A DNA stretch of 29,199 nt from positions 1 to 29,199 of the IMG/VR virus record IMGVR_UViG_3300045776_000172; one strand, 5' to 3'. The notes beneath the pieces were generated by a model. It worked only from the letters and a program-made list of their open reading frames with translations, was not told where the DNA came from and ran no database searches. This DNA comes from a virus. The translations under genes and the position numbers were made by a program. This document shows, piece after piece, positions 6,031 to 25,835 of this stretch (positions within the stretch are counted from its first letter, which is position 1; each line of letters opens with the position of its first letter).

Positions 6031-6630
6031 TTGGCGGGCATTACTCAATATCTCGCAGTGCTGAACGGGACGGCGCGGGCGTTTCTCGCCGGGTCGGACG
6101 CATCGACAACGCCGGTTCTGGCCCCGGCGCACACGCTGGTGGACGCGAATGGCGTGCCGGTGTCGGGTGCGGCGCCGCTGCCGGTGAAGCCCGGCGCGGG
6201 AACGTTGGTTGACCGCTCCGTCACCAGTGCTGCTACCGGCACGCTCGCTGCGGCGAATCCCGGCCGCACATCGCTGTCATTCCAGGTTCCGACGGCACTG
6301 ACATCCGGTCTTTGGGTGCCCGCACTGTCGGCATCGCTGGGCTGTCTTAACCCCAACCCCGGCACGTTGGTAGCGTGCCGGGGGCTGTCTGGCGGCGTTC
6401 CTGGGCGGGCTTACAAAGTTGCCATCACAGCAACGACCGCGGCGCGCACGTATCAATGGCTCGTTGGCGTTGTGTGCGATCCCGTGTTGGCGGTCTGGCC
6501 GCTTATCGATCCGCCGTCCCCGGACTTCGGCGCCCCCCATGCCCTATCGGCCCCTAGCTTTGATGAGTTTGGGGATGCGATGATGTGGACGCTCACTGAC
6601 GACGCAGCATTTATGATTGTTGGAGGCTAG
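6031..6630 (+). CDS. Fibre-like protein, cassette gene 2 (TTG start)
   Basis: I place the start at the TTG at 6031, five bases after GGAGG (6021-6025) that is formed by the last codons of the previous gene; the product is 199 aa (MAGITQYLAVLNG...). Residues 1-50 share the pattern 'LNG...PAH-x-VD-x-NGVPVS-x-AAP' with the next protein, so the two have a common N-terminal module, perhaps for attachment to the virion. The rest is beta-rich, with a WPLIDPPS segment near 155-162 that recalls WPMIDDPDS in the preceding protein. The C-terminus is FMIVGG. The product is probably a fibre or adapter subunit; no enzyme motif is seen. Confidence 0.66.
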   Translation: MAGITQYLAVLNGTARAFLAGSDASTTPVLAPAHTLVDANGVPVSGAAPLPVKPGAGTLVDRSVTSAATGTLAAANPGRTSLSFQVPTALTSGLWVPALSASLGCLNPNPGTLVACRGLSGGVPGRAYKVAITATTAARTYQWLVGVVCDPVLAVWPLIDPPSPDFGAPHALSAPSFDEFGDAMMWTLTDDAAFMIVGG

Positions 6631-6634
6631 ACCG

Positions 6635-7315
6635 ATGGCGATGGGTTTTTATAGGGCCATTCTTAACGGCCTAGCGCAGACGCTTGGGTCCGCGTCCGAT
6701 AGCAATGGAACCCTTTATCCGGCGCATGTGGTCGTTGATCAGAACGGCGTGCCGGTCTCGGTTGCGGCTCCGTTCCCGACTGCCGACGCTACGGCGGGTG
6801 GGTATCTGGCATCGATCGCCACGAACACGGTGGGCGTAGCGACAGCGGCCGGGCAGGCGACTGGCAACACGTCTCTGGCATCGATCGCCACGAACACGGT
6901 GGGCGTAGCGACAGCGGCCGGGCAGGCGACTGGCAACACGTCTCTGGCATCGATCGCTACCAGCGACGCCACGACCGCGACAAACACCACCACGATTGCC
7001 GGCGCGGTATCCAGCGGGCGCATGGTTATCGCCGCGCCGCTGTCCTACAGCAGCAGCACGTCCGGCACGGTAGCGGCAACGTCCGGCACTCTGGTATCCG
7101 CAGGCGCATTTACGCACACCCTGCAAATCTGGAACAACGGCACGGCAACGATCTGGCTCAACCCAACAGGGTCGGCCGCGGTTGTTGGTGCCGGCGCTCC
7201 GATCCCGGCTGGCGGGGCGCTGATATTCGGCGCGATCGATCTGCCAATACCGACCGCGGCAATCACCGCGATTTCCTCACTAGGCAGCGTTTCCGTTTCG
7301 ATAGTTGGGGGTTAA
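6635..7315 (+). CDS. Fibre-like protein with 23-residue repeats, cassette gene 3
   Basis: The 226-aa product starts at the ATG at 6635, eight bases after GGAGG (6622-6626) encoded in the end of the previous gene; an ATG at 6641 is an alternative. The N-terminal 45 residues repeat the module of the preceding protein (YPAHVVVDQNGVPVS). Residues 57-108 contain two identical 23-residue units (LASIATNTVGVATAAGQATG plus NTS) and the start of a third, encoded by a perfect DNA repeat. The C-terminal 100 residues are beta-rich and end in SVSIVGG. The arrangement (conserved base, repeat shaft, beta tip) is fibre-like, so a trimeric fibre or adapter is a reasonable inference. Confidence 0.68.
   Translation: MAMGFYRAILNGLAQTLGSASDSNGTLYPAHVVVDQNGVPVSVAAPFPTADATAGGYLASIATNTVGVATAAGQATGNTSLASIATNTVGVATAAGQATGNTSLASIATSDATTATNTTTIAGAVSSGRMVIAAPLSYSSSTSGTVAATSGTLVSAGAFTHTLQIWNNGTATIWLNPTGSAAVVGAGAPIPAGGALIFGAIDLPIPTAAITAISSLGSVSVSIVGG
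6805..6957 (+). repeat. Perfect 69-bp tandem repeat, two copies plus 15 bp
   Basis: Copies span 6805-6873 and 6874-6942, and a third begins at 6943 (TCTGGCATCGATCGC) before diverging. I found no mismatch between the two full copies. The unit length is 23 codons, so gain or loss of a copy keeps the reading frame of the fibre-like gene. Confidence 0.93.
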
Positions 7316-13077: not shown

Positions 13078-14196
13078 TCACGAAACCATTCCGAAAGCCA
13101 CTCTCGACGCGGCTTGCCCGGACGCACCGACCGCGATGGGCGTGCCCCAGAACGCCAGAATGCTCTCCGCCATCCCCTCCGGCGCCAGCTTCGCATACCG
13201 CTCGACCTGATCCACGGACGCCCACCCGCCCCGGTCGCGCAGCATCAACAGATCCCGGTGCACCGCATATTGCCACGTCGCCCAGGTATGCCGGGCGTGG
13301 TGCGGTGTCAGGTGGCGGATGATCCCTCCGCACTTCAGCGCCGCCCGCCATGACTTCGCAATCTGATTGCCGTACGCCGTCGTGCGGCTGTCGTTCGTGT
13401 CCCGGTAGGCATCGCCGCCGCGCACCCGCCGGAACACCCGTCCCTTCCGCTCCTTCAGGTTGGCCAACGCGGCGATGGCCCGCGGCGGCAGATCCACAAT
13501 GCGGTCCAGACCGTTCTTCGTGCCGCGCAGCCCCGCATCATCGCGCGCCCCACGAAACACCGCCCGGCCGTGCTGGAGGTCTACGTCGCACCAATCAAGG
13601 CCGATCACCTCATTCACCCGGGCGCCGGTGCAGAACAGGAATGTCAGCAGCGAGCGAAACTTCTCGTGCGCGCCCTCGATCATCGCCTCGGCCTCCGCCG
13701 GCGTCATCCAGTCGGTGCGCTTGCGCCCACCCTTGACCGCTTCGAAGGTCGGTATCGCACACCAGCCACGGCGCGCAGCATGGGACAGGATGGCCTTGGT
13801 CGGCGCGATAACCTCGCGCAGCTTGGTCGCGGGCGCGGCTCCGGGGCGGCATAGCGCCGCGCATGCCTTGTCGATCGCCGCCTGGTCGAGCGCCTCGCAG
13901 ACAAGGCTCGCGCCGAAATGCCGAACGATCCGGCCGACGCGGTTCTTCGTACCGGCGCTTCGCGCCTCGGTGCTCAGGTAGCTGAGGGCGGCGGCGGCGA
14001 ACGGCGTGGACGGCTTTTCGCCGTAAACGGCAGCACGATAGAGTTCGGCTTCCCGCGTCGAACGGGCTTCCTCGGCGAGCTGGGGGCTGTCAGTGCCAGC
14101 ACTTTCAAAAATGCGGTGCCCCCTGATGGTGCCGCGGAGATATAGGGCTTTGGTCCCCGCGCGCGTGACGACTGTGAGTCCTGGGCGTTTCGGCAT
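13078..14196 (-). CDS. int: Tyrosine recombinase (phage integrase)
   Basis: This 372-aa protein is a tyrosine site-specific integrase. The catalytic residues are visible: R193 in CTGARVNEVIGLDW, K227 in GTKNGLDR, H299 and R302 in LTPHHARHTW, W325 in DRGGWASVDQ (a common His/Trp position) and nucleophile Y334 in VERYAKL. Residues 1-55 look like an arm-binding domain and about 60-150 like a SAM-like core-binding domain. GGAAG lies seven bases before the ATG. The gene is in the leftward operon about 1 kb from the attP core. It would insert the phage into tRNA-Thr(GGT) and, with an excisionase, remove it. Confidence 0.95.
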   Translation of the reverse strand: MPKRPGLTVVTRAGTKALYLRGTIRGHRIFESAGTDSPQLAEEARSTREAELYRAAVYGEKPSTPFAAAALSYLSTEARSAGTKNRVGRIVRHFGASLVCEALDQAAIDKACAALCRPGAAPATKLREVIAPTKAILSHAARRGWCAIPTFEAVKGGRKRTDWMTPAEAEAMIEGAHEKFRSLLTFLFCTGARVNEVIGLDWCDVDLQHGRAVFRGARDDAGLRGTKNGLDRIVDLPPRAIAALANLKERKGRVFRRVRGGDAYRDTNDSRTTAYGNQIAKSWRAALKCGGIIRHLTPHHARHTWATWQYAVHRDLLMLRDRGGWASVDQVERYAKLAPEGMAESILAFWGTPIAVGASGQAASRVAFGMVS

Positions 14197-15412: not shown

Positions 15413-15584
15413 GGGGTGTGTCCCGCCAGCCCGGCGCCGCTTCATCCAGGGCGGCCGTCAGTTCGTCCATCTCCGGCCACGGCTCGTAGAGCGATTCCGC
15501 TTCCGGTCGGCCGAGCAGCTTCGCCTCCGACCCTGCTTCGCTCCAGGTCAGGGCGATCGCCGCCGCGATCAGCCGCGCGCTCAC
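15405..15584 (-). CDS. Small hypothetical protein (GTG start)
   Basis: This 59-aa gene starts at a GTG that overlaps the ParB-like stop as GTGA (15584-15581). The product (MSARLIAAAIALTWSEAGSE... ending AAPGWRDTPRG) has an N-terminal helix followed by an acidic stretch with Trp and Pro. The coupling and normal composition support it. No family is recognised. Confidence 0.58.
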   Translation of the reverse strand: MSARLIAAAIALTWSEAGSEAKLLGRPEAESLYEPWPEMDELTAALDEAAPGWRDTPRG

Positions 15585-17224
15585 GCCCCGTGCTCCCGGC
15601 CCTGTGGCGCCGGGGCGCCGAACTCCGCCCCCTCCGGACGCCAGTCGGGCAACTGGCCGACCAGTCGCTCGCGCACCACCTTGACGGTGCCGGTGGTCTT
15701 CTTGCCCTCCGCCCCTGCCATGCGGCGCAGCTCATCGCCGCCGACGTGCTGCAGGAACTCCTCCGTATCGAACCGCGGCAGCGCCTGCTCGGCGCCGATC
15801 GCCGCGCCGATCCACTCCGCCGCCGGGCCGCTGGTGTCGCTACAGGAGCCTGCCGGGCCCGGCGTGCCGAACGACAGCAACCGGGCGAGCAGCTCGCCGG
15901 CGTGCATCCGCACGTCCGCCAGGCTGAGCGGCAGCACCTCGCCCTCCGGCGTCAGCACGCGCGCCGCCAGGTCGCGGAACCTCCGCATCGACCAGACGAG
16001 ACTATCCGGCTCTTCGACGCCGCTGCAGCTCACGTTGAGCGCTGTGAACGCCAACATCATCAGCGTCAGCACCCGGTGCGGTGTCTCCCCCGCCAGGCCG
16101 TCCCGCAACGTCTCCCGCAGCGCCTGCGTCTTGGCGTCGGCAATCATCGCCAGCCCCGCCTTGCTGATCCTCGGCTTCAGAACCTCAACGAGCGGCTTCC
16201 ACGGGATGTCGTCACCTTCATCAGGATCATCACCCCCCGCCACCCCCGTGCCCTTGTTCTTCTTCGCCTCCGCCTGTTTCACCGCGGCCAAATCCTCAGC
16301 CGTGACGCTGGCGACGTTCAGCTTCTCGTCGAGGCACGTGAACACCGTCTCGACACGCTTCGGCTTGTCCACATCGCCATACGTCCGCTTGAACCCCGCC
16401 GGCACCTTCGGCCCGTGCGTGGCGCTGTCCCAGGTGCTCAGCCGCAGCCGCTTCTTCTTCGCCTGCGCCGCGGCCACCCGAGCCTCCAGCGCCGCCACCT
16501 GCAACTCCCGGAACGCCTCGCGGTCCGTCGTCGAGTATTCGTCCTGCGCACCCGGCTGAGCGAACAGATCCACGTCCCACGCCAGCAGCGCCGGATCGAA
16601 GATCGCGGCGGGGCGGTAGATGCGCTGGTCCTCGCAGGCCTGCGCGATCTTCCACCAGGTGATCTCGACCGCGACGCCGTTCTGCCGCCGGAACGCCCCC
16701 GGCACCTTCAGCGCCGCCGCCTGCCGCTCGAGCGAGACCACCGCGATCTTCCGCAGCTCATGATCGGACGGGAAGCCCATCTCCTCGATCAGTTCCAGGA
16801 TCTCCGGGTGCAGCATGCCGAGCCGCTCCATCCGCCGCGCCCGCCGTTCCTCGAGGCCGAGTGCGGCCGCCGCATCGAGGGCGGTCAGCCCGTTCTCCAT
16901 CATCGCCCGCACCGCGCGCCACTGGTCCACCGGGTGCATGCCGGCGCGCGCCATGTTCTCAGCCGCCTGCGCCGACAGCACCTGGCCGTCGGTCATCTCC
17001 CGCACCTCGGCCGGGATCTCGGTCAGCCCGGCCTCGCGGGCAGCGTTCAGCCGCCTCCGGCCGAAGATCAGCGAATACGCATCCTGGCCAAGCCGCTGCA
17101 CCAGGATCGGCTGCAGCACGCCCTGCGAGCGCACGCTCGCCAGCAGGCCCGCGTCGGCTTCCACGCCGGCCGGGATCTGCCGCACGTTGGCGCGGTCGCG
17201 GATTTTGTTAACCGAGATCAGCAT
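15581..17224 (-). CDS. ParB/Spo0J-like nuclease-fold protein
   Basis: This 547-aa protein has the ParB N-domain: MLISVNKIRDRANVRQI, then ILVQRLGQDAYSLIFGRRRL with the arginine-rich box (GRRRLNAA, 55-62), and AAENMARAGMHPVDQWRAV (87-105). A HTH follows (LTALDAAAALGLEERRARR, 113-131). The remaining 400 residues are not canonical ParB; they include a Lys/Gly/Asp-rich linker near 340-355 and an Ala-rich helical C-terminus. No parA is nearby. ParB-like proteins act as CTPase clamps in partition or, in phages, as nucleases or regulators. GGAAG precedes the ATG. Length is well above standard ParB (about 300 aa). Confidence 0.83.
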   Translation of the reverse strand: MLISVNKIRDRANVRQIPAGVEADAGLLASVRSQGVLQPILVQRLGQDAYSLIFGRRRLNAAREAGLTEIPAEVREMTDGQVLSAQAAENMARAGMHPVDQWRAVRAMMENGLTALDAAAALGLEERRARRMERLGMLHPEILELIEEMGFPSDHELRKIAVVSLERQAAALKVPGAFRRQNGVAVEITWWKIAQACEDQRIYRPAAIFDPALLAWDVDLFAQPGAQDEYSTTDREAFRELQVAALEARVAAAQAKKKRLRLSTWDSATHGPKVPAGFKRTYGDVDKPKRVETVFTCLDEKLNVASVTAEDLAAVKQAEAKKNKGTGVAGGDDPDEGDDIPWKPLVEVLKPRISKAGLAMIADAKTQALRETLRDGLAGETPHRVLTLMMLAFTALNVSCSGVEEPDSLVWSMRRFRDLAARVLTPEGEVLPLSLADVRMHAGELLARLLSFGTPGPAGSCSDTSGPAAEWIGAAIGAEQALPRFDTEEFLQHVGGDELRRMAGAEGKKTTGTVKVVRERLVGQLPDWRPEGAEFGAPAPQGREHGA

Positions 17225-19050: not shown

Positions 19051-19422
19051 CTATTTTTTTGCGGAGCTGTCTTTCGGTCCGTCTTCAGATGGCACGGCTT
19101 CCAGGGACTCCGCCGTGGCAACCACCTGCATCAGAATTGCTTCGCGAACTCGTGGCGGCAACCCTTCGAATTTCCGAACAAGTATGATGGTCTGCGGGTC
19201 TTTGGATGACACTTGCCCGATATCGGCGGCTTCCGGCAGCAGGCTGGCAAACGGCACCGACAGAATGGCCGCGAGGTCAACCCGATTCGCCAGGCTCGGA
19301 TTGGTGATGCCGGTCTCCCATTGCGCGACGGCACTCGGCGCGACGCCCATCCGTTCCGCCAGGGCGCGTTGAGAAAGCCGCTTTTCGCGGCGGCCGTCGC
19401 GGATAACCGAGGCTATGTCCAT
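19051..19422 (-). CDS. XRE-family phage repressor (CI-like)
   Basis: The 123-aa product from the ATG at 19422 has a classic lambda-repressor/XRE HTH: IRDGRREKRLSQRALAERMG, then VAPSAVAQWETGITNPSL (residues 7-43). The C-terminal 70 residues are helical and lack the S24 peptidase (LexA-like) domain, so induction must differ from RecA-stimulated self-cleavage. An ATG at 19464 in the same frame lies upstream of a TATAGT/TATTAT -10-like sequence; I therefore prefer 19422, which would give a very short leader. It is divergent from the Cro-like gene and flanked by operator-like repeats on both sides. Confidence 0.85.
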   Translation of the reverse strand: MDIASVIRDGRREKRLSQRALAERMGVAPSAVAQWETGITNPSLANRVDLAAILSVPFASLLPEAADIGQVSSKDPQTIILVRKFEGLPPRVREAILMQVVATAESLEAVPSEDGPKDSSAKK

Positions 19423-19440
19423 CGGTAGAGAGTGCGCCTG

Positions 19441-19501
19441 ACTATAATAAGTTGTCCTGAGCATTTTCCGCTTGCGCCTATCGCTCAGTCTGTCTTAGCG
19501 T
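19441..19501 (+). promoter_or_regulatory. Candidate divergent control region (PR/OR and PRM-like)
   Basis: Rightward, TTGCGC (19472-19477) and TAGCGT (19496-19501) are spaced 18 bases, with ATCGCTCAGT in the spacer, and CTGAGC (19457-19462) lies nine bases upstream of the -35. This mirrors the leftward element. The -10 ends eight bases before the Cro-like ATG, which implies a leaderless or nearly leaderless mRNA. An AT-rich block with TATAAT (19443-19448) on the + strand and TATAGT on the - strand could serve the repressor promoter. Confidence 0.6.
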
Positions 19502-19508
19502 AGCGCTC

Positions 19509-19721
19509 ATGAATGGCATGGCTCTCATCCGGGAACAGCGCGGACTAATCGCCAAGGTGGCGCGCGAGATTGGCATCAAAGGCTCTGCTGTCTCCATGTG
19601 GACGAAAGTCCCGGCGGAGCGGCTGCCGGACGTCGAGCGTATCACGGGTATCCCGCGATATAAGCTGCGCCCGGATATTTGTCCGCCACCGGCGGACGCC
19701 CCCTCGCAGGACGCCGCGTGA
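19509..19721 (+). CDS. Cro/YdaS-like HTH protein
   Basis: This 70-aa protein (MNGMALIREQRGLIAKVARE...) has a YdaS/Cro-type HTH: LIAKVAREIGIKGSAVSMWTK then VPAERLPDVERITGIPRYKL. It is divergent from the repressor and first in the rightward early operon, the position of cro. It would repress the repressor promoter and set the lytic path. No Shine-Dalgarno is seen; M1 and M4 are both possible starts, and a leaderless transcript is likely. Confidence 0.82.
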   Translation: MNGMALIREQRGLIAKVAREIGIKGSAVSMWTKVPAERLPDVERITGIPRYKLRPDICPPPADAPSQDAA

Positions 19722-20458: not shown

Positions 20459-20980
20459 ATGTTCGACGGCCTGCCAAAATGGCAACCCTCACGTTCCAGC
20501 CTTGCGTATAGCGTTCCCACCGGGCATCCGCCCGTGGCCGAGCAGCTCGCCGACCAGGTGCGCTCCTCCAGCGGGATGACCCTCGGTCGCCGCCGCCCCG
20601 GTGGCGGCCCCGCCATGCTGGCCCCGGCTTTCGTGAAAGGCGGCCGCATCCCCGAGCCGCCCGTCTCCCGCCGCTCCGCCGATCGGCCCGTCCCCGCCAG
20701 CGATGTCCGCGACGACGCGCCGATCGGCATCCGCCTGCTCGCCGAGCTGCGCCGCGTCGACGCCGGCGACCATGTGCTGATGCCCCGCACCGAGCTGCGC
20801 GACCGCTACGGCATCGGCTTCATCGGCGCCCTGTTCGCCCTGCGCCGTTCCGGCGACCTGGCGTTCTGGATGGGCCACTCGGCGGACCGCGCGGACATCC
20901 GCAACGAGATGGTGGTGCGCCTCAAGGGCAGCCGCCACGAGCTGCGCACGCCCGCCGCCCCCGCCCACATCATCCTCTAA
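20459..20980 (+). CDS. Hypothetical protein, possible winged helix
   Basis: This 173-aa protein has a long, Pro/Gly/Arg-rich, probably disordered first half. Its C-terminal domain (residues about 88-165: IGIRLLAELRRVDAGDHVLM, RTELRDRYGIGFIGALFALR, then SGDLAFW) has the helix-helix-wing pattern of a winged helix. It could bind DNA, possibly as a replication or transcription factor. The ATG at 20459 follows GGGAAA; a start at residue 40 is an alternative. No family is recognised. Confidence 0.6.
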   Translation: MFDGLPKWQPSRSSLAYSVPTGHPPVAEQLADQVRSSSGMTLGRRRPGGGPAMLAPAFVKGGRIPEPPVSRRSADRPVPASDVRDDAPIGIRLLAELRRVDAGDHVLMPRTELRDRYGIGFIGALFALRRSGDLAFWMGHSADRADIRNEMVVRLKGSRHELRTPAAPAHIIL

Positions 20981-20987
20981 GAATCCG

Positions 20988-21239
20988 ATGCGCGGCCGCA
21001 CCCCTGTTGCCGATTTCGTCGTTCCGCAAACGCACAAATGTGGGTGTGGATCGACCGAAATCATCGCCACTTACGCCGGAACCATTGCGGAGGCCGACAT
21101 GCCCCTGAGCAACATCATTCCCATGCATCCCGCGCCGGAGATCCCGCGCGTCGATTACTGCGCCGCCTGCTGGCCCTGGTCGAAAGCCGCCGCCCCCCTC
21201 GCGGCCGCCCCCCTCGCGGCCGCCACGGTGCAGTCATGA
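20988..21239 (+). CDS. Small Cys-rich protein, possible zinc ribbon
   Basis: The 83-aa ORF has two cysteine pairs, CGCGSTEII and YCAACW, which could bind zinc if the full ORF is translated from 20988. A much better ribosome binding site (GGAGG, 21089-21093) lies five bases before an in-frame ATG at 21099, which would give 46 aa with only the second pair. The end contains an AAPLAAAPLAAA run coded by a 15-bp tandem repeat (from about 21187). The stop overlaps the next start (ATGA). Confidence 0.55.
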   Translation: MRGRTPVADFVVPQTHKCGCGSTEIIATYAGTIAEADMPLSNIIPMHPAPEIPRVDYCAACWPWSKAAAPLAAAPLAAATVQS

Positions 21240-22069
21240 CCGAGATCACCATCCGCCACGTCATCAGCCTCTGCCCCCGCACGCAGGCGCTGATCGAGCA
21301 GCTCGCCGCATCGCTGCGCAGCGTGGCGCAACCCCTGCTGAGCGTCTCTCCTTCGGCGCCGCAGACCGAGGTCCCCGGGGAGTCGGGACCAGTCACGAGT
21401 GCTGATCCTCAACCGCAGGCGGAAGGGCCAGGTCGCGCCGCCGGCGGCACTGCCGGGGAGGCTCCCCCGTCTCCCCGGCCTTTTTCCGACGAGTTCACCC
21501 AAGCCGTTGCGGTCGCCCCCGCGCCGAAACAGAAACGCCAGCTTTCCCCCGAGCACCTTGAAAAGCTGCGCCAACAATGCGCCGTCATGCGCGCGGACAA
21601 GCTGGCGCAGGCCGCCGGCGGGCCGGTGCCTGTCACGCTGCGCACCTGGAACCCGGAACGCGACGCCGTGCTCCGGCGCGACTATCCCGCCGGCATCGCC
21701 ATCGACGTCATCCACGCCGCCGTGATGGCTCTGCCGGGCAAGCCGGTCGCCCGAGACCGCATCGCCATCCAGGCGGCCAAGATCGGCCTCAAGCGCCCAG
21801 CCAAGCTCACCCCGCCGGCGGCAGTAGAGTCCCAACCGGCACCCCCACCCGTCGCCGCCCACAACGAGATGATCGCCACCGCCATGTGGACCCCGGAGCG
21901 CGACGCTATCGTCCGCGAGGATTATCCGACCCGCACCCCGATGCGCGACATGCTGACGGATCTCAACATGCTCCCCGGCACGCCCGTCGAGCGCCAGCAC
22001 GTCCACACCCGCGCCGGCGAGATGCGCCTGGTGCGCCCCTTCTTCGACCCCGCCAGCCAGGCCGCCTGA
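21236..22069 (+). CDS. Tandem Myb/SANT-like DNA-binding protein
   Basis: This 277-aa protein has an Ala/Pro-rich first half and two similar C-terminal repeats, residues 138-188 and 218-268. Each starts W-(N/T)-P-E-R-D-A-(V/I)-(L/V)-R-x-DYP, has a PGxPVxR middle, and ends in a basic helix with xRxx(L/V)xRP. The pattern W..E.D..(L/I)R..YP with a C-terminal GLKRP resembles Myb/SANT or GcrA-like HTH units. The product probably binds DNA as a tandem module. It lies just before the primase and helicase genes, so a role in origin recognition or transcription is possible. It overlaps the preceding gene by four bases. Confidence 0.68.
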   Translation: MTEITIRHVISLCPRTQALIEQLAASLRSVAQPLLSVSPSAPQTEVPGESGPVTSADPQPQAEGPGRAAGGTAGEAPPSPRPFSDEFTQAVAVAPAPKQKRQLSPEHLEKLRQQCAVMRADKLAQAAGGPVPVTLRTWNPERDAVLRRDYPAGIAIDVIHAAVMALPGKPVARDRIAIQAAKIGLKRPAKLTPPAAVESQPAPPPVAAHNEMIATAMWTPERDAIVREDYPTRTPMRDMLTDLNMLPGTPVERQHVHTRAGEMRLVRPFFDPASQAA

Positions 22070-22075
22070 CCCGCC

Positions 22076-23101
22076 ATGTCCACCCGCCCGACCGCCTCCG
22101 AAGTCTCCGCCGAACTGTCCCGCCGAATCGAAGCGCTCTGCCGCGACCTCCTCGGGTCCGGCAGGCGCAAATCCAGCTACTGGACGGTCGGTGGCACCGA
22201 CAACAGCCCCGGCGGCAGCATGTGGGTCCACCTCTCCGGCGAGAAGCAGGGCAACTGGCAGGACGCCGCGACCGGCGAGTTCGGCGACGCCCTCGATCTG
22301 CTCGCCGCCTGCCGCTACGCCGGCGACAAGAAAACCGCCTACGCCGCCGGCCTGCTCTGGCTCGGCTGGGCAACCGGCGCCACCGAGCCAGCCCGCAAAG
22401 CCCCGCCATCCCGCCCGAAGATCGAGGTCGATGCCGAAACCGCCCGCAAACGCGCGTACGCCTTGCGGCTATACCTGGAAGCCCGGCCGTCGATCCTCGA
22501 CACCCCGGTCGATCATTACTTGCAGGCGCGCGGCATCAACATCGCCGCCCTCGGCCGCCAGCCCCGTGCGCTGCGCTTCCATCCGGACCTCCGCCACCGC
22601 GAATCCGGCCACACCTTCCCGGCGATGATCGCCGCCATCTCCGGCCCGGACGGCAGCCACGTGGCGACCCACCGGACCTATCTGGAGCGCACCGGTGGCG
22701 GCTGGATCAAGGCCCGCCTCAACGACGCCAAGCTGTCCATCGGTGACTTCGCCGGCGGCTCGATCCGGCTCTGGCGCGGCGCCTCCGGCAAGTCGCTGAA
22801 GGATATGCCCTGGGACGAAGACGTCTTTTTGGGCGAGGGCATCGAAACCTGCCTGTCGGTCGCCCAGTCCCTGCCGGACATGCGCGTGCTCTGCGGCGTC
22901 TCGCTCGGCAACCTGGGCTCCGTTTGGCTGCCGGACCAGGCCCGCCGCGTCATCATCGGCGGCGATAACGACATCAAGCCCGCCGCCCGCGCCGCCCTGC
23001 AGCGCGCGGCTGAGCGGCATATGGACCGCGGCCGCGAAGTGCGCATCGCACGCTCGCCCGAGGGCAATGACTTCAACGATATAATCCGGGTAACCGCCTG
23101 A
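22076..23101 (+). CDS. Toprim primase-like replication protein
   Basis: This 341-aa protein carries a Toprim domain in its C-terminal half: FLGEGIETCLSVAQ (E254-E257) and RVIIGGDNDIKPA (D297, D299), the acidic metal-binding pair. The N-terminal part has GNWQDAATGEFGDALDLLA (59-77), the segment seen in phage DUF7146/primase-like proteins. No CHC2 zinc finger is seen. It would make primers together with the helicase encoded next, whose ATG overlaps its stop (TGATG). Primase function is inferred from family. Confidence 0.88.
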   Translation: MSTRPTASEVSAELSRRIEALCRDLLGSGRRKSSYWTVGGTDNSPGGSMWVHLSGEKQGNWQDAATGEFGDALDLLAACRYAGDKKTAYAAGLLWLGWATGATEPARKAPPSRPKIEVDAETARKRAYALRLYLEARPSILDTPVDHYLQARGINIAALGRQPRALRFHPDLRHRESGHTFPAMIAAISGPDGSHVATHRTYLERTGGGWIKARLNDAKLSIGDFAGGSIRLWRGASGKSLKDMPWDEDVFLGEGIETCLSVAQSLPDMRVLCGVSLGNLGSVWLPDQARRVIIGGDNDIKPAARAALQRAAERHMDRGREVRIARSPEGNDFNDIIRVTA

Positions 23102-24954
23102 TGTCCGACGCCGGCAAGACCAAGATCCGCAATGCCGTCCTCGGCGCCGATCGCGCGTTCAAGGTGATCGACGGCGGCGAGGGCGGCGGCGGCACGGCTC
23201 ACGAAGCCGCCGACGACTGCCCCGTCTCTGCTCTCGGCCACAACGACGGCACCTGCTTCTTCCTCGACTTCGCCGGCCAGCCGCGCAAGTTCGGTGCCCG
23301 CGACCTCGGCAACCGTCACGCCCTGATGCTGCTGTTCGGCGGCGATGACACCTGGCCGCGCGCTACTTACCCGGTCAAAAAGGAATTCGAGGACGAACGC
23401 GGCAACAAGGTCGAACGCATCGTCGGTTTCAACGTCAACAAGCTGGCCCAGGACCTGATCGCCCGCGCCTCCGCCGCCGGCATCTGGGGCAAGTCCATCA
23501 CCTTGCGCCAGCCCGGCATCTGGCGCGGTGACGACGGCCTCCCCGTCGTGCATTGCGGCGACGCCGTGCTGATCGGCGACAAGTGGAAAAAACCCGGCTT
23601 CCGCACCGGCAAGCAGATCTGGGCCGCGGCCGAGCCGATCCCCCGCCCCGGTGTCCCCTGCGATCCCTCCATCGCCCGCATCCTGCAGGAGGAGCTGCAG
23701 ACCCACTGGTGCTACAAGGACGGCGGCGCAGCCATCGCCACGATCGGCATGCTCTACAGCGGCTGGACCTGCGGCGCGCTGTATTGGAGGATGAACGGCT
23801 TCGTCACCGGCCCGACCGGCTGCGGCAAGACCAGCCACATGAAAGTCATGCGCGCCGCCTGGCCGGTGCACGACTACAGCAACGACACCAGTAAAGCCGG
23901 CATGGAACAGACCATCGCCAGCCGCGCCATCCCCAGCGTCATCGATGAGGCCTCGGATCGCAACAACAACTCCGGCAAGGATCTGCTCGACATCGTGCTC
24001 AGCAGCTCCGGCGACGAAGGCACCAAACTCGCCCGCGGCACGACGGACGGCAAGGGCCGCACCTCGGAGATCGTCTCGTCCGTCGTGATGTATTCGATCT
24101 ACCCGCCGCCGATGCAGCCGCAGCATCTCAGCCGCTTCGTGCTGATCGAGCTGGAACGCCCGCCCGAGGGTGCCGACGGCCGCCAGGATCATGCCCGCAT
24201 CGCCGAATTCGTGCGTACCAACGCTCCCGGCCTGTGGGGCCGCGCGATCGGCGCCCTGGAGCGCTATCACGAGTCGATGCTGATGTTCCGCACCGAGCTG
24301 GCCGTGCACGGCTGCAGCCCGCGTGAGATGGACAGCAAGGGCGCGCTGCTCGCCGGCTGGTATGTCATGACCAATGACGGCCTGCCCGACCAGCGCGCAC
24401 TGAAGGAAGGCATCGCCGCTCTGGGCGGTTTCATCAGCACCGCCGCCGAGGCCGAGGCTGACGACGCCCCCACCCGCGCCCTGCAGCACCTGCTGGCGAC
24501 CCAGGTGCAGCTCCACCGCAGCACCGACAAGGATCAGATCGGCGAGCTGCTGGAGATCGCCTTCGGCGCCAGCACGGAAGAAAGCCGCCAGCCCCATGCT
24601 GCCTCCGCCGTGCTCGGCAGCAACGGGATCCGCCCGGTCCAGGCCTGCAGGCGTCCCGTGCCCCCGCCGGATGGGGCTGCGTGCAGTTGCTACGCCTGCT
24701 TCGACGACAGGCAACACAAGCCCGTGCCCCGCATCGGCCGGGGTGGCGGCGTCTGGATCGCCACCCGGCATCCGGGTCTGGAAACCATCTTCAAAGGCTC
24801 CGACTTCGACGGTCGCAAATGGCTGACAGCCATCTCGCGCTGCCGCGACGCCCGCAACAGCGACCGCAACATCCGCATCGGCGGCGCACCCGGCCGGGCA
24901 ATCTGGCTGCCGCAGCACGTAATCTTGCCGCCGGACGATCCGCCGGGGGTGTGA
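23101..24954 (+). CDS. Phage primase-helicase / DUF927-like ATPase
   Basis: This 617-aa protein has an N-terminal domain (about 40-135: VSALGHNDGTCFFLDFAGQP, DLGNRHALMLLFGG) found in bacterial and phage DUF927-type proteins. The following AAA/RecA-like ATPase has Walker A GPTGCGKTS (237-245) and a Walker B-like SVIDEASD (around 279-286). A cysteine cluster (ACRRP, CSCYACFDD) lies near 520-540. It is likely the replicative helicase of the phage. Its stop codon is part of the first GTGTGAA heptamer of the adjacent repeat array. Confidence 0.85.
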   Translation: MSDAGKTKIRNAVLGADRAFKVIDGGEGGGGTAHEAADDCPVSALGHNDGTCFFLDFAGQPRKFGARDLGNRHALMLLFGGDDTWPRATYPVKKEFEDERGNKVERIVGFNVNKLAQDLIARASAAGIWGKSITLRQPGIWRGDDGLPVVHCGDAVLIGDKWKKPGFRTGKQIWAAAEPIPRPGVPCDPSIARILQEELQTHWCYKDGGAAIATIGMLYSGWTCGALYWRMNGFVTGPTGCGKTSHMKVMRAAWPVHDYSNDTSKAGMEQTIASRAIPSVIDEASDRNNNSGKDLLDIVLSSSGDEGTKLARGTTDGKGRTSEIVSSVVMYSIYPPPMQPQHLSRFVLIELERPPEGADGRQDHARIAEFVRTNAPGLWGRAIGALERYHESMLMFRTELAVHGCSPREMDSKGALLAGWYVMTNDGLPDQRALKEGIAALGGFISTAAEAEADDAPTRALQHLLATQVQLHRSTDKDQIGELLEIAFGASTEESRQPHAASAVLGSNGIRPVQACRRPVPPPDGAACSCYACFDDRQHKPVPRIGRGGGVWIATRHPGLETIFKGSDFDGRKWLTAISRCRDARNSDRNIRIGGAPGRAIWLPQHVILPPDDPPGV

Positions 24955-25172
24955 AGGGTGTGAAGGGGTGTGAACGGAGGTGTGAACGGAAAACACGAGG
25001 AAAACTGCGGGTGTGAACGGTGTGAACGGGAAATCGTGATTTTACCTCGTGTAGGGATATTCTTCTCATGAAGACCACAAATATCCTTCACACCCTTCAC
25101 ACCCTTCACACTGACTAGAACTAGTTGATAAATAATAGAATAGGTGTGAACCATGAGTGTGAACGGTGTGAA
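24949..25172. repeat. GTGTGAA iteron array, candidate replication origin
   Basis: Twelve GTGTGAA heptamers lie within 224 bp. Nine are on the + strand (starts 24949, 24958, 24968, 24980, 25011, 25020, 25144, 25157, 25166) and three are inverted as TTCACAC (25087, 25096, 25105). Most spacings are 9-13 bp. Between the inverted set and the last direct set is an AT-rich stretch (25111-25143) containing the dyad ACTAG-AA-CTAGT (25115-25126). The array sits directly after the primase-helicase gene. Iterons plus an AT-rich segment beside replication genes is the layout of an iteron-type origin. Both ends run into coding sequence. Confidence 0.75.
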
Positions 25173-25395
25173 TACCGAAACGCAAACACCACTGTCCCCC
25201 CAGACGATAACCACCATCGCGCGGCTGCTCGCCCGCCGCATCGCCAGGGAAAGCCTCGTGTCCCGCCTGGGGATCGCCCTGGCGCTGCTCAAAAGCCTGC
25301 TGGATGAATGCCCGGAAGCGCGCGCGGAAGTCCTGCTGACCGCTCTCGACGCGCGGCGCAGCGCCAACCTCCGGCTGGTGGAGAATTTGAAATGA
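25153..25395 (+). CDS. Small helical protein starting inside the iteron array
   Basis: The ATG at 25153 lies between heptamers, so the first residues (MSVNGVNTETQT) are coded by the repeats. The 80-aa product is mostly helical (TITTIARLLARRIARESLVS, LGIALALLKSLLDECPEARA) and basic. It may bind the origin and so regulate its own synthesis, but no motif proves this. It overlaps the next gene by four bases (ATGA). Confidence 0.66.
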   Translation: MSVNGVNTETQTPLSPQTITTIARLLARRIARESLVSRLGIALALLKSLLDECPEARAEVLLTALDARRSANLRLVENLK

Positions 25396-25835
25396 GCGCT
25401 TGCCTGGAAATCAACCCCGTGGACGCCGCCTACGTCATCGCCCGCCTCGAAGAAGCCGGGACGACCCTGCTGGTCATCCCCGGCGGAGGCCTCGGCCCCC
25501 GCATGTCCAACGGCGCCCTGGACTGCGTCCGCGCCGCCGTGGAGGCCTACGGCTGGACCGACGCCCCCGTCAAACCCGCCGCACGCTCATCGCGCCAGAT
25601 CACCGAGATGGACGAATGCCTGACCTGGCTGCAATTCATCCCGAACAGCCGCTACGTCCTCCGCCGGATCGTCGGCGCCCGCATGCTGGTCCATCCCGTG
25701 TCGGAAAAGCATTTGTTCTCCTGGCGTCGCGTCGCCGCCGCAATCGGCGCTGACTACAAAGCCGTGCAGCGCTGGCACGCTGACGCGATCGATCTGATTG
25801 TGGCAAATCTGCAATATCGGAATTATTTGAAATAA
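25392..25835 (+). CDS. DUF6362-like HTH protein
   Basis: This 147-aa protein has a C-terminal half resembling the phage DUF6362 family: WLQFIPNSRYVLRRIVGARM, then SWRRVAAAIGADYKAVQRWH and a helix ending VANLQYRNYLK. The central part is a HTH of the sigma-70 region 4 or transposase type. It could be a late transcription regulator, since it is the last gene before a terminator and the packaging genes. The N-terminal 55 residues (MSACLEINPVDAAYVIARLE) form a separate small domain. Confidence 0.68.
   Translation: MSACLEINPVDAAYVIARLEEAGTTLLVIPGGGLGPRMSNGALDCVRAAVEAYGWTDAPVKPAARSSRQITEMDECLTWLQFIPNSRYVLRRIVGARMLVHPVSEKHLFSWRRVAAAIGADYKAVQRWHADAIDLIVANLQYRNYLK

Follow-up and report, generated by a model that had tools for sequence, protein, structure and literature searches.

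An array of twelve heptamers beside a Cch-like helicase gene: a probable replication origin of temperate phages

What is the role of a dense cluster of short repeats whose first copy contains the stop codon of a phage helicase gene? The question is raised by the IMG/VR virus record IMGVR_UViG_3300045776_000172, from which a stretch of 29 199 bases (hereafter the window) was analysed. All 12 exact copies of the heptamer GTGTGAA in the window, counted on both strands (nine on the plus and three on the minus strand), fall within positions 24949–25172, whereas shuffled windows contain 2.08 copies on average and six at most, and never reach 12. The array is dyad-symmetric, with around 12 sites arranged in a conserved geometry and written in a lineage-specific sequence; it is present together with one family of helicases and is gone where that helicase has been replaced. 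Comparison of the sequences indicates that it is very probably the replication origin of the phage, at which two head-to-head hexamers of a self-loading helicase would assemble.

In the window, the start-to-start steps between the heptamers are 9, 10, 12, 31, 9, 67, 9, 9, 39, 13 and 9 bp. A left outer block of four heptamers on the plus strand (24949–24986, with sites at 24949, 24958, 24968 and 24980), flipped against the orientation that prevails in relatives, is separated by a left spacer (24987–25010, 46% AT) from a left inner pair, also on the plus strand and facing the centre (25011–25026, with sites at 25011 and 25020). A third left inner site, present in many relatives, is not recognisable. 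Beyond the centre between the two half-origins (25027–25086, 58% AT) lie a right inner triplet on the minus strand, likewise facing the centre with steps of 9 bp (25087–25111, with sites at 25087, 25096 and 25105), a right spacer (25112–25143, 75% AT) and a right outer triplet on the plus strand (25144–25172, with sites at 25144, 25157 and 25166). The spacers and the centre carry no strand. The right spacer is a candidate DNA unwinding element, and AT-rich spacers are found in relatives too; the mean AT content of flanking DNA is 33% in 55 loci. An earlier analysis made from the letters alone (the sequence-only reading) had counted nine direct and three inverted copies at these positions, and both the number and the places proved exact. 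It had also placed the helicase stop codon (TGA, 24952–24954) in the first heptamer and the N-terminus of the next protein (25153–25395) in the last ones, of which two are involved, and had described the inverted block as nearly complementary to the first direct block; 25085–25104 is a perfect 20-nucleotide complement of 24947–24966. Its statement that the repeats surround AT-rich DNA holds in so far as such DNA is present, with the correction that the AT maximum lies not in the centre but in the spacer that separates the inverted triplet from the last one. The heptamer GTGTGAA had no relevant match in the literature.

The helicase gene (23101–24954, plus strand; phrog_21086) forms one operon with that of a Toprim_3/DUF7146 primase (22076–23101, plus strand) and encodes an AAA+ protein predicted to be a self-loading initiator helicase. 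An AlphaFold2 model built with 63 relatives reached a predicted local distance difference test score (pLDDT) of 86 and contains a C-terminal winged-helix-like domain at residues 550–608 (24748–24924, plus strand), the core of which scores 90 or more; prediction and its association with the heptamer make this the proposed iteron-reading domain. The best solved match to the predicted helicase fold is Cch of the staphylococcal cassette chromosome mec (SCCmec; 5dgk, E = 4.4e-8), a relative of SaPI Rep, and further matches are PrimPol/D5-type proteins (NrS-1 and AsfvPrimPol), MCM and SaPI5 helicases. The protein thus belongs to the Cch/DUF927/D5 AAA+ group; weak DUF927 matches occur in six of the 63 relatives, and the window helicase has no Pfam match. 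Among the ten window proteins scanned there is no Rep family and no Rep_3 or O-like initiator, as the sequence-only reading had noticed. It had suggested that the binding protein may be new and had named the products of 20459–20980, 21236–22069 and 25153–25395 for binding tests. None of these has relatives in other array loci, so that a new protein besides the helicase finds no support; the helicase, with its predicted winged helix and Cch-like fold, is the likelier candidate.

The sequence-only reading had tied an iteron origin to the helicase and had stated that it would be refuted if phages with homologous helicases did not conserve the array; the array proved conserved, which supports the origin. 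A tblastn search with the helicase gave 20 phage records, the top one being Synechococcus phage MinM1 (32% identity), which has a TGTGAG array at the equivalent place; this array, too, begins within the stop codon of the helicase gene. In viral and genome collections, scans with a single helicase sequence gave no match and an alignment was required; one of four helicases retrieved 80 viral and 16 bacterial-genome loci (loci are numbered with the prefix L below). A scan of both strands for clustered words detected arrays in most helicase loci, with a heptamer that changes with the lineage: GGTGTGAA, TGTCCCG, GTAGCAG, TGTTGAC, GGTTCTG, CGTTACC, TGTTCCG and GTGGTAC are among those found. A two-strand heptamer array that beats the best of 106 Markov-simulated controls is present in 91 of 106 helicase-selected loci, and the median array score is 35.7 in the loci versus 10.2 in the controls. 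The exact triple-heptamer pattern retrieved no match, because spacing and motif vary. In most loci the array lies less than about 200 bp from the helicase stop codon, the exceptions being 0.4–3.4 kb away or upstream of the primase. Of the proposed tie between origin, helicase end and small gene, only a part recurs: a heptamer overlaps the stop codon in few lineages (MinM1, L015 and L065), and the overlap with the open reading frame (ORF) at 25153–25395 is not conserved. In L040/L096 (8262–8525), a weaker CGGTGT array of the same spacing was seen within a clade that otherwise has CGTTACC, apparently a recent change of heptamer.

The geometry of the array is far more constant than its sequence. 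In 55 non-redundant loci (set 1) the order is an outer triplet, an AT-rich spacer, an inner triplet, the centre, and then the mirror image of these parts. Twelve sites are the commonest total (26 of 55 loci). Inner steps are 8–9 bp in 145 of 163 cases, outer steps are mostly 11–12 bp (20–22 bp where one site is missing), the distance from outer to inner sites is mostly 39–45 bp, and the gap at the centre is 48–99 bp (median 71), as exemplified by L028 (11, 12, 40, 8, 8, 56, 8, 8, 40, 11, 11) and L058 (10, 11, 12, 43, 8, 76, 8, 42, 12, 11, 10). Inner sites face the centre on the left in 53 and on the right in 51 of the 55 loci, and the AT content falls from 55–66% in the two spacers to 40% in the centre and 33% in the flanks. 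A further 52 arrays (set 2), retrieved via a neighbouring gene for a protein like the small terminase (TerS-like) and freed of overlap with set 1, reproduce this geometry with 37 distinct seed words: 12 sites occur in 23 of 52, the inner orientation agrees in 47 of 50, the spacers have 59% AT versus 34% in the flanks, and the steps are again mirror-symmetric, e.g. 22, 12, 43, 8, 8, 50, 8, 8, 43, 12, 21. A further pattern, noted for the clade L060–L098, appears when the heptamers are written as KGTNNNN: depending on the part of the helicase tree, inner sites are directed towards the centre or away from it.

Which part of the helicase might read the heptamers? Among 493 helicase columns ranked by heptamer association after removal of overall identity, the top four (592, 552, 589 and 602) all lie in the C-terminal domain, which as a whole is not significantly enriched in heptamer-associated columns (p = 0.09). 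Ten of the 16 loci with GTTA-type heptamers have lysine at position 599, which none of the 39 others has. L087 combines Lys 599 with TGTTACC and its sisters L091, L093 and L107 combine Gln with TGTTCCG, while L040/L096 have Arg there with CGGTGT, though they stand inside the Lys clade. The rank correlation of the heptamer is modest for both the whole helicase (0.37) and the C-terminal domain (0.356), and therefore our argument is built on gene swaps and on the column ranking. We infer that the helicase reads the heptamers through its predicted C-terminal winged helix.

In most loci, a protein of around 200 amino acids with a GRPxGSKN (AT-hook-like) motif (phrog_15261; e.g. L035 7238–7867 with 68 other loci, and L049 2796–3293) is encoded close after the array. 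We call it TerS-like by its position before the large terminase (TerL); it may have a role at the origin. Its relatives were retrieved using two subfamilies; the full alignment had too few conserved stretches. Among the loci retrieved through the TerS-like gene, an array is present in 84 of the 85 with the helicase in view, versus none of the three distinct TerS-like loci that have enough context and a replaced helicase (Fisher test, 3.6e-5, with a small number of loci). The replacement modules are a D5_N/DUF5906 helicase in L160 and L161 and a DnaD-like loader in L219/L220.

Several observations weigh against an origin read by the helicase. The number of sites ranges from 9 to 17, and the left half of the window array is irregular, with a flipped outer block of four sites and only two recognisable inner sites. 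GC skew does not turn at the array, either in the window or in MT835534, and is uninformative there and in MinM1. A Foldseek search with the isolated small C-terminal domain gave no significant match. The Lys-599 pattern ignores phylogeny, and six GTTA loci lack the lysine. Lastly, the array adjoins the TerS-like gene in many loci (15–100 bp upstream of it) and has been relocated with it in one clade (L049/L053/L080), where both lie upstream of the primase; in loci with the TerS-like gene, the partial rank correlation of the heptamer is 0.276 with that gene versus 0.04 with the whole helicase and 0.17 with its C-terminal domain. Because of this adjacency, a DNA packaging site like P1 pac or lambda cosB, where the small terminase would bind the repeats and mark the start of packaging, seemed a serious rival, and P1 pac indeed has two clusters of short repeats flanking the cut region. 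The exchanges of genes between loci speak otherwise. L091 and L093/L107 have TGTTCCG in common and helicases that are 75–78% identical, but TerS-like and TerL proteins that are just 24–29% identical; conversely, the TerS-like proteins of L087 and L091 are 88% identical but their heptamers differ. Arrays of like geometry exist without that TerS family (in the window, MinM1, L015–L024, L051 and L065), there is no array in L160 and L161, where the TerS-like gene stays, and the half-module is common to P4 ori and crr, as described below. On these swap tests the array is not tied to the terminase genes and a packaging site was rejected; we regard this explanation as unlikely.

An operator array, on which a phage regulator would bind the heptamers and so direct the transition between early and late genes, would suit both the position between the replication and packaging modules and the dyad symmetry of the repeats. 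But no regulator gene is conserved next to the arrays, one clade has the array upstream of the primase, the presence of the array follows the helicase type, and 12 sites with spacers kept to a few bp are unusual for operators. Such an operator is slightly more improbable still; binding of the helicase could repress transcription as a side effect. The idea that the repeats form a long single-stranded or RNA hairpin, which the sequence-only reading had also raised and which would act as a terminator, an attenuator or a single-strand origin, draws on the perfect 20-nucleotide inverted arms in the window and on the predicted folding of the array strand, which is far more stable than that of shuffles (z = −6.5). 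Pairing of the arms needs the left outer block to be flipped as it is here (most relatives have it in the opposite orientation), the step lengths differ between outer and inner triplets, and an Rfam scan of the array found no family. We rejected the hairpin because it is not conserved, and give it hardly any probability.

For the origin, what the sequences show is co-occurrence and covariation of helicase and array, and the following course of binding and autonomous replication may be proposed. The helicase (23101–24954) would bind the heptamers with its C-terminal winged helix, and each half of the array (outer triplet, AT-rich spacer of about 40–45 bp, and inner pair or triplet) would gather around six subunits. 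Two hexamers would then assemble head to head around the centre; their ATP-driven work would melt the AT-rich spacer, and the hexamers would grip single strands and unwind outward, with the neighbouring Toprim primase priming both forks. The least certain step is that of one site per subunit, for which the equality of 12 and 2 × 6 is suggestive only. A bolder version, which we put forward tentatively and at somewhat less than an even chance, is that the array is a one-site-per-subunit template for a head-to-head double hexamer in which the steps of 8–9, about 42 and 11–12 bp encode the assembly, that the wing reads the lineage heptamer and so avoids cross-reaction between co-resident phages, and that P4 ori and crr are separated halves of the same design.

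Around the array, the 80-amino-acid ORF (25153–25395, plus strand) starts inside the right outer triplet and is not conserved, with zero relatives among 50 697 phage records. The next gene (25392–25835, plus strand) encodes a DUF6362 protein with relatives at just two other array loci, and genes for a minor tail protein and a small terminase are also nearby. Elsewhere in the window, a protein read as ParB/RepB-like from its sequence (15581–17224, minus strand) is encoded close to a tyrosine integrase-like gene (13078–14196); the annotation of MinM1 likewise has both a ParB/RepB/Spo0J protein and an integrase, and the corresponding entry is L111 26000–28081. A divergent pair of genes for an HTH_3 repressor (19051–19464, minus strand) and a YdaS/Cro-like protein (19509–19721, plus strand), typical of a temperate switch, lies upstream of the replication genes. 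A tail-region protein (6617–7315) contains near-identical repeats (SIATNTVGVATAAGQATGNTSL).

The paired loading of a hexameric helicase at an origin is an old question. More than 100 non-redundant arrays set tens of heptamers into a single fixed scaffold; the rules that govern binding, spacing and subunit number thereby become readable and testable, and the putative origin becomes predictable from sequence for many phages and prophages of sphingomonads, Rhodobacter relatives, Brevundimonas and Synechococcus.

Several known replicons resemble this arrangement. Tandem short sites beside AT-rich DNA are also found in iteron plasmids (RepE, RepA) and lambda O-type origins. In contrast to these, the heptamers described here are on both strands and outside the initiator gene, and no Rep_3 or O-like protein was found among the scanned window proteins. 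Symmetric sites on which the helicase that recognises them assembles as two hexamers are known from SV40 large T antigen and papillomavirus E1, in which the DNA-binding domain is at the opposite end of the protein. The same comparison has been made in the literature, with the DNA-binding domain of large T and E1 noted as N-terminal (PMC7581432).

The S. aureus pathogenicity islands (SaPI) and phage-inducible chromosomal islands (PICI) have origins directly 3′ of rep, with two iteron sets around an AT-rich region, and in SaPI, PICI and Cch the iterons are bound by the C-terminal domain, with two hexamers proposed (PMC7581432, PMC6092414). The present arrays share with them, and with SCCmec Cch/Cch2, short iterons 3′ of a helicase gene, and the window helicase folds closest to Cch. 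They differ in having four triplets and two AT-rich spacers instead of two iteron sets around one AT-rich region, and in that the related design belongs to complete temperate phages, which bring integrase, tail and terminase genes of their own. The window, with its tail and small-terminase genes, is not a satellite in the sense of a dependent element without a full virion gene set, and the annotation of MinM1 includes a terminase, a portal and an integrase of its own.

The half-module has a close counterpart in satellite phage P4, which also has short lineage-specific iterons (type-1, GGTGAACA) at ori and crr. The annotated type-1 iterons are spaced by 10, 11, 22, 43 and 10 bp at ori and by 9, 43, 18 and 14 bp in each crr repeat. 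As in the present arrays, a 43-bp AT-rich spacer (83% AT at ori, 69–71% at crr) stands between an iteron pair and a group, with steps of 9–11 bp; crr lies shortly downstream of the gene for the initiator-helicase alpha, and alpha has a C-terminal domain of solved structure (1ka8), its origin-binding domain. The present arrays join two half-modules head to head within about 220–290 bp; in P4, around 5 kb separate ori from crr, and crr consists of two direct copies. In the present phages a distinct protein serves as primase beside the helicase, and the helicase is not P4-alpha-like by sequence, with weak matches to TIGR01613 (the P4-primase family) in 10 of 63 members. Iterons directly downstream of the helicase gene and iteron sets around AT-rich DNA are features of the P4/SaPI/PICI type that the present arrays have. 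We regard the array system as a variant of the P4/SaPI/PICI-type replicon with an unusually regular, symmetric layout; it carries over to complete temperate phages a layout of origins that has been called unique to phage satellites, and links this layout to P4.
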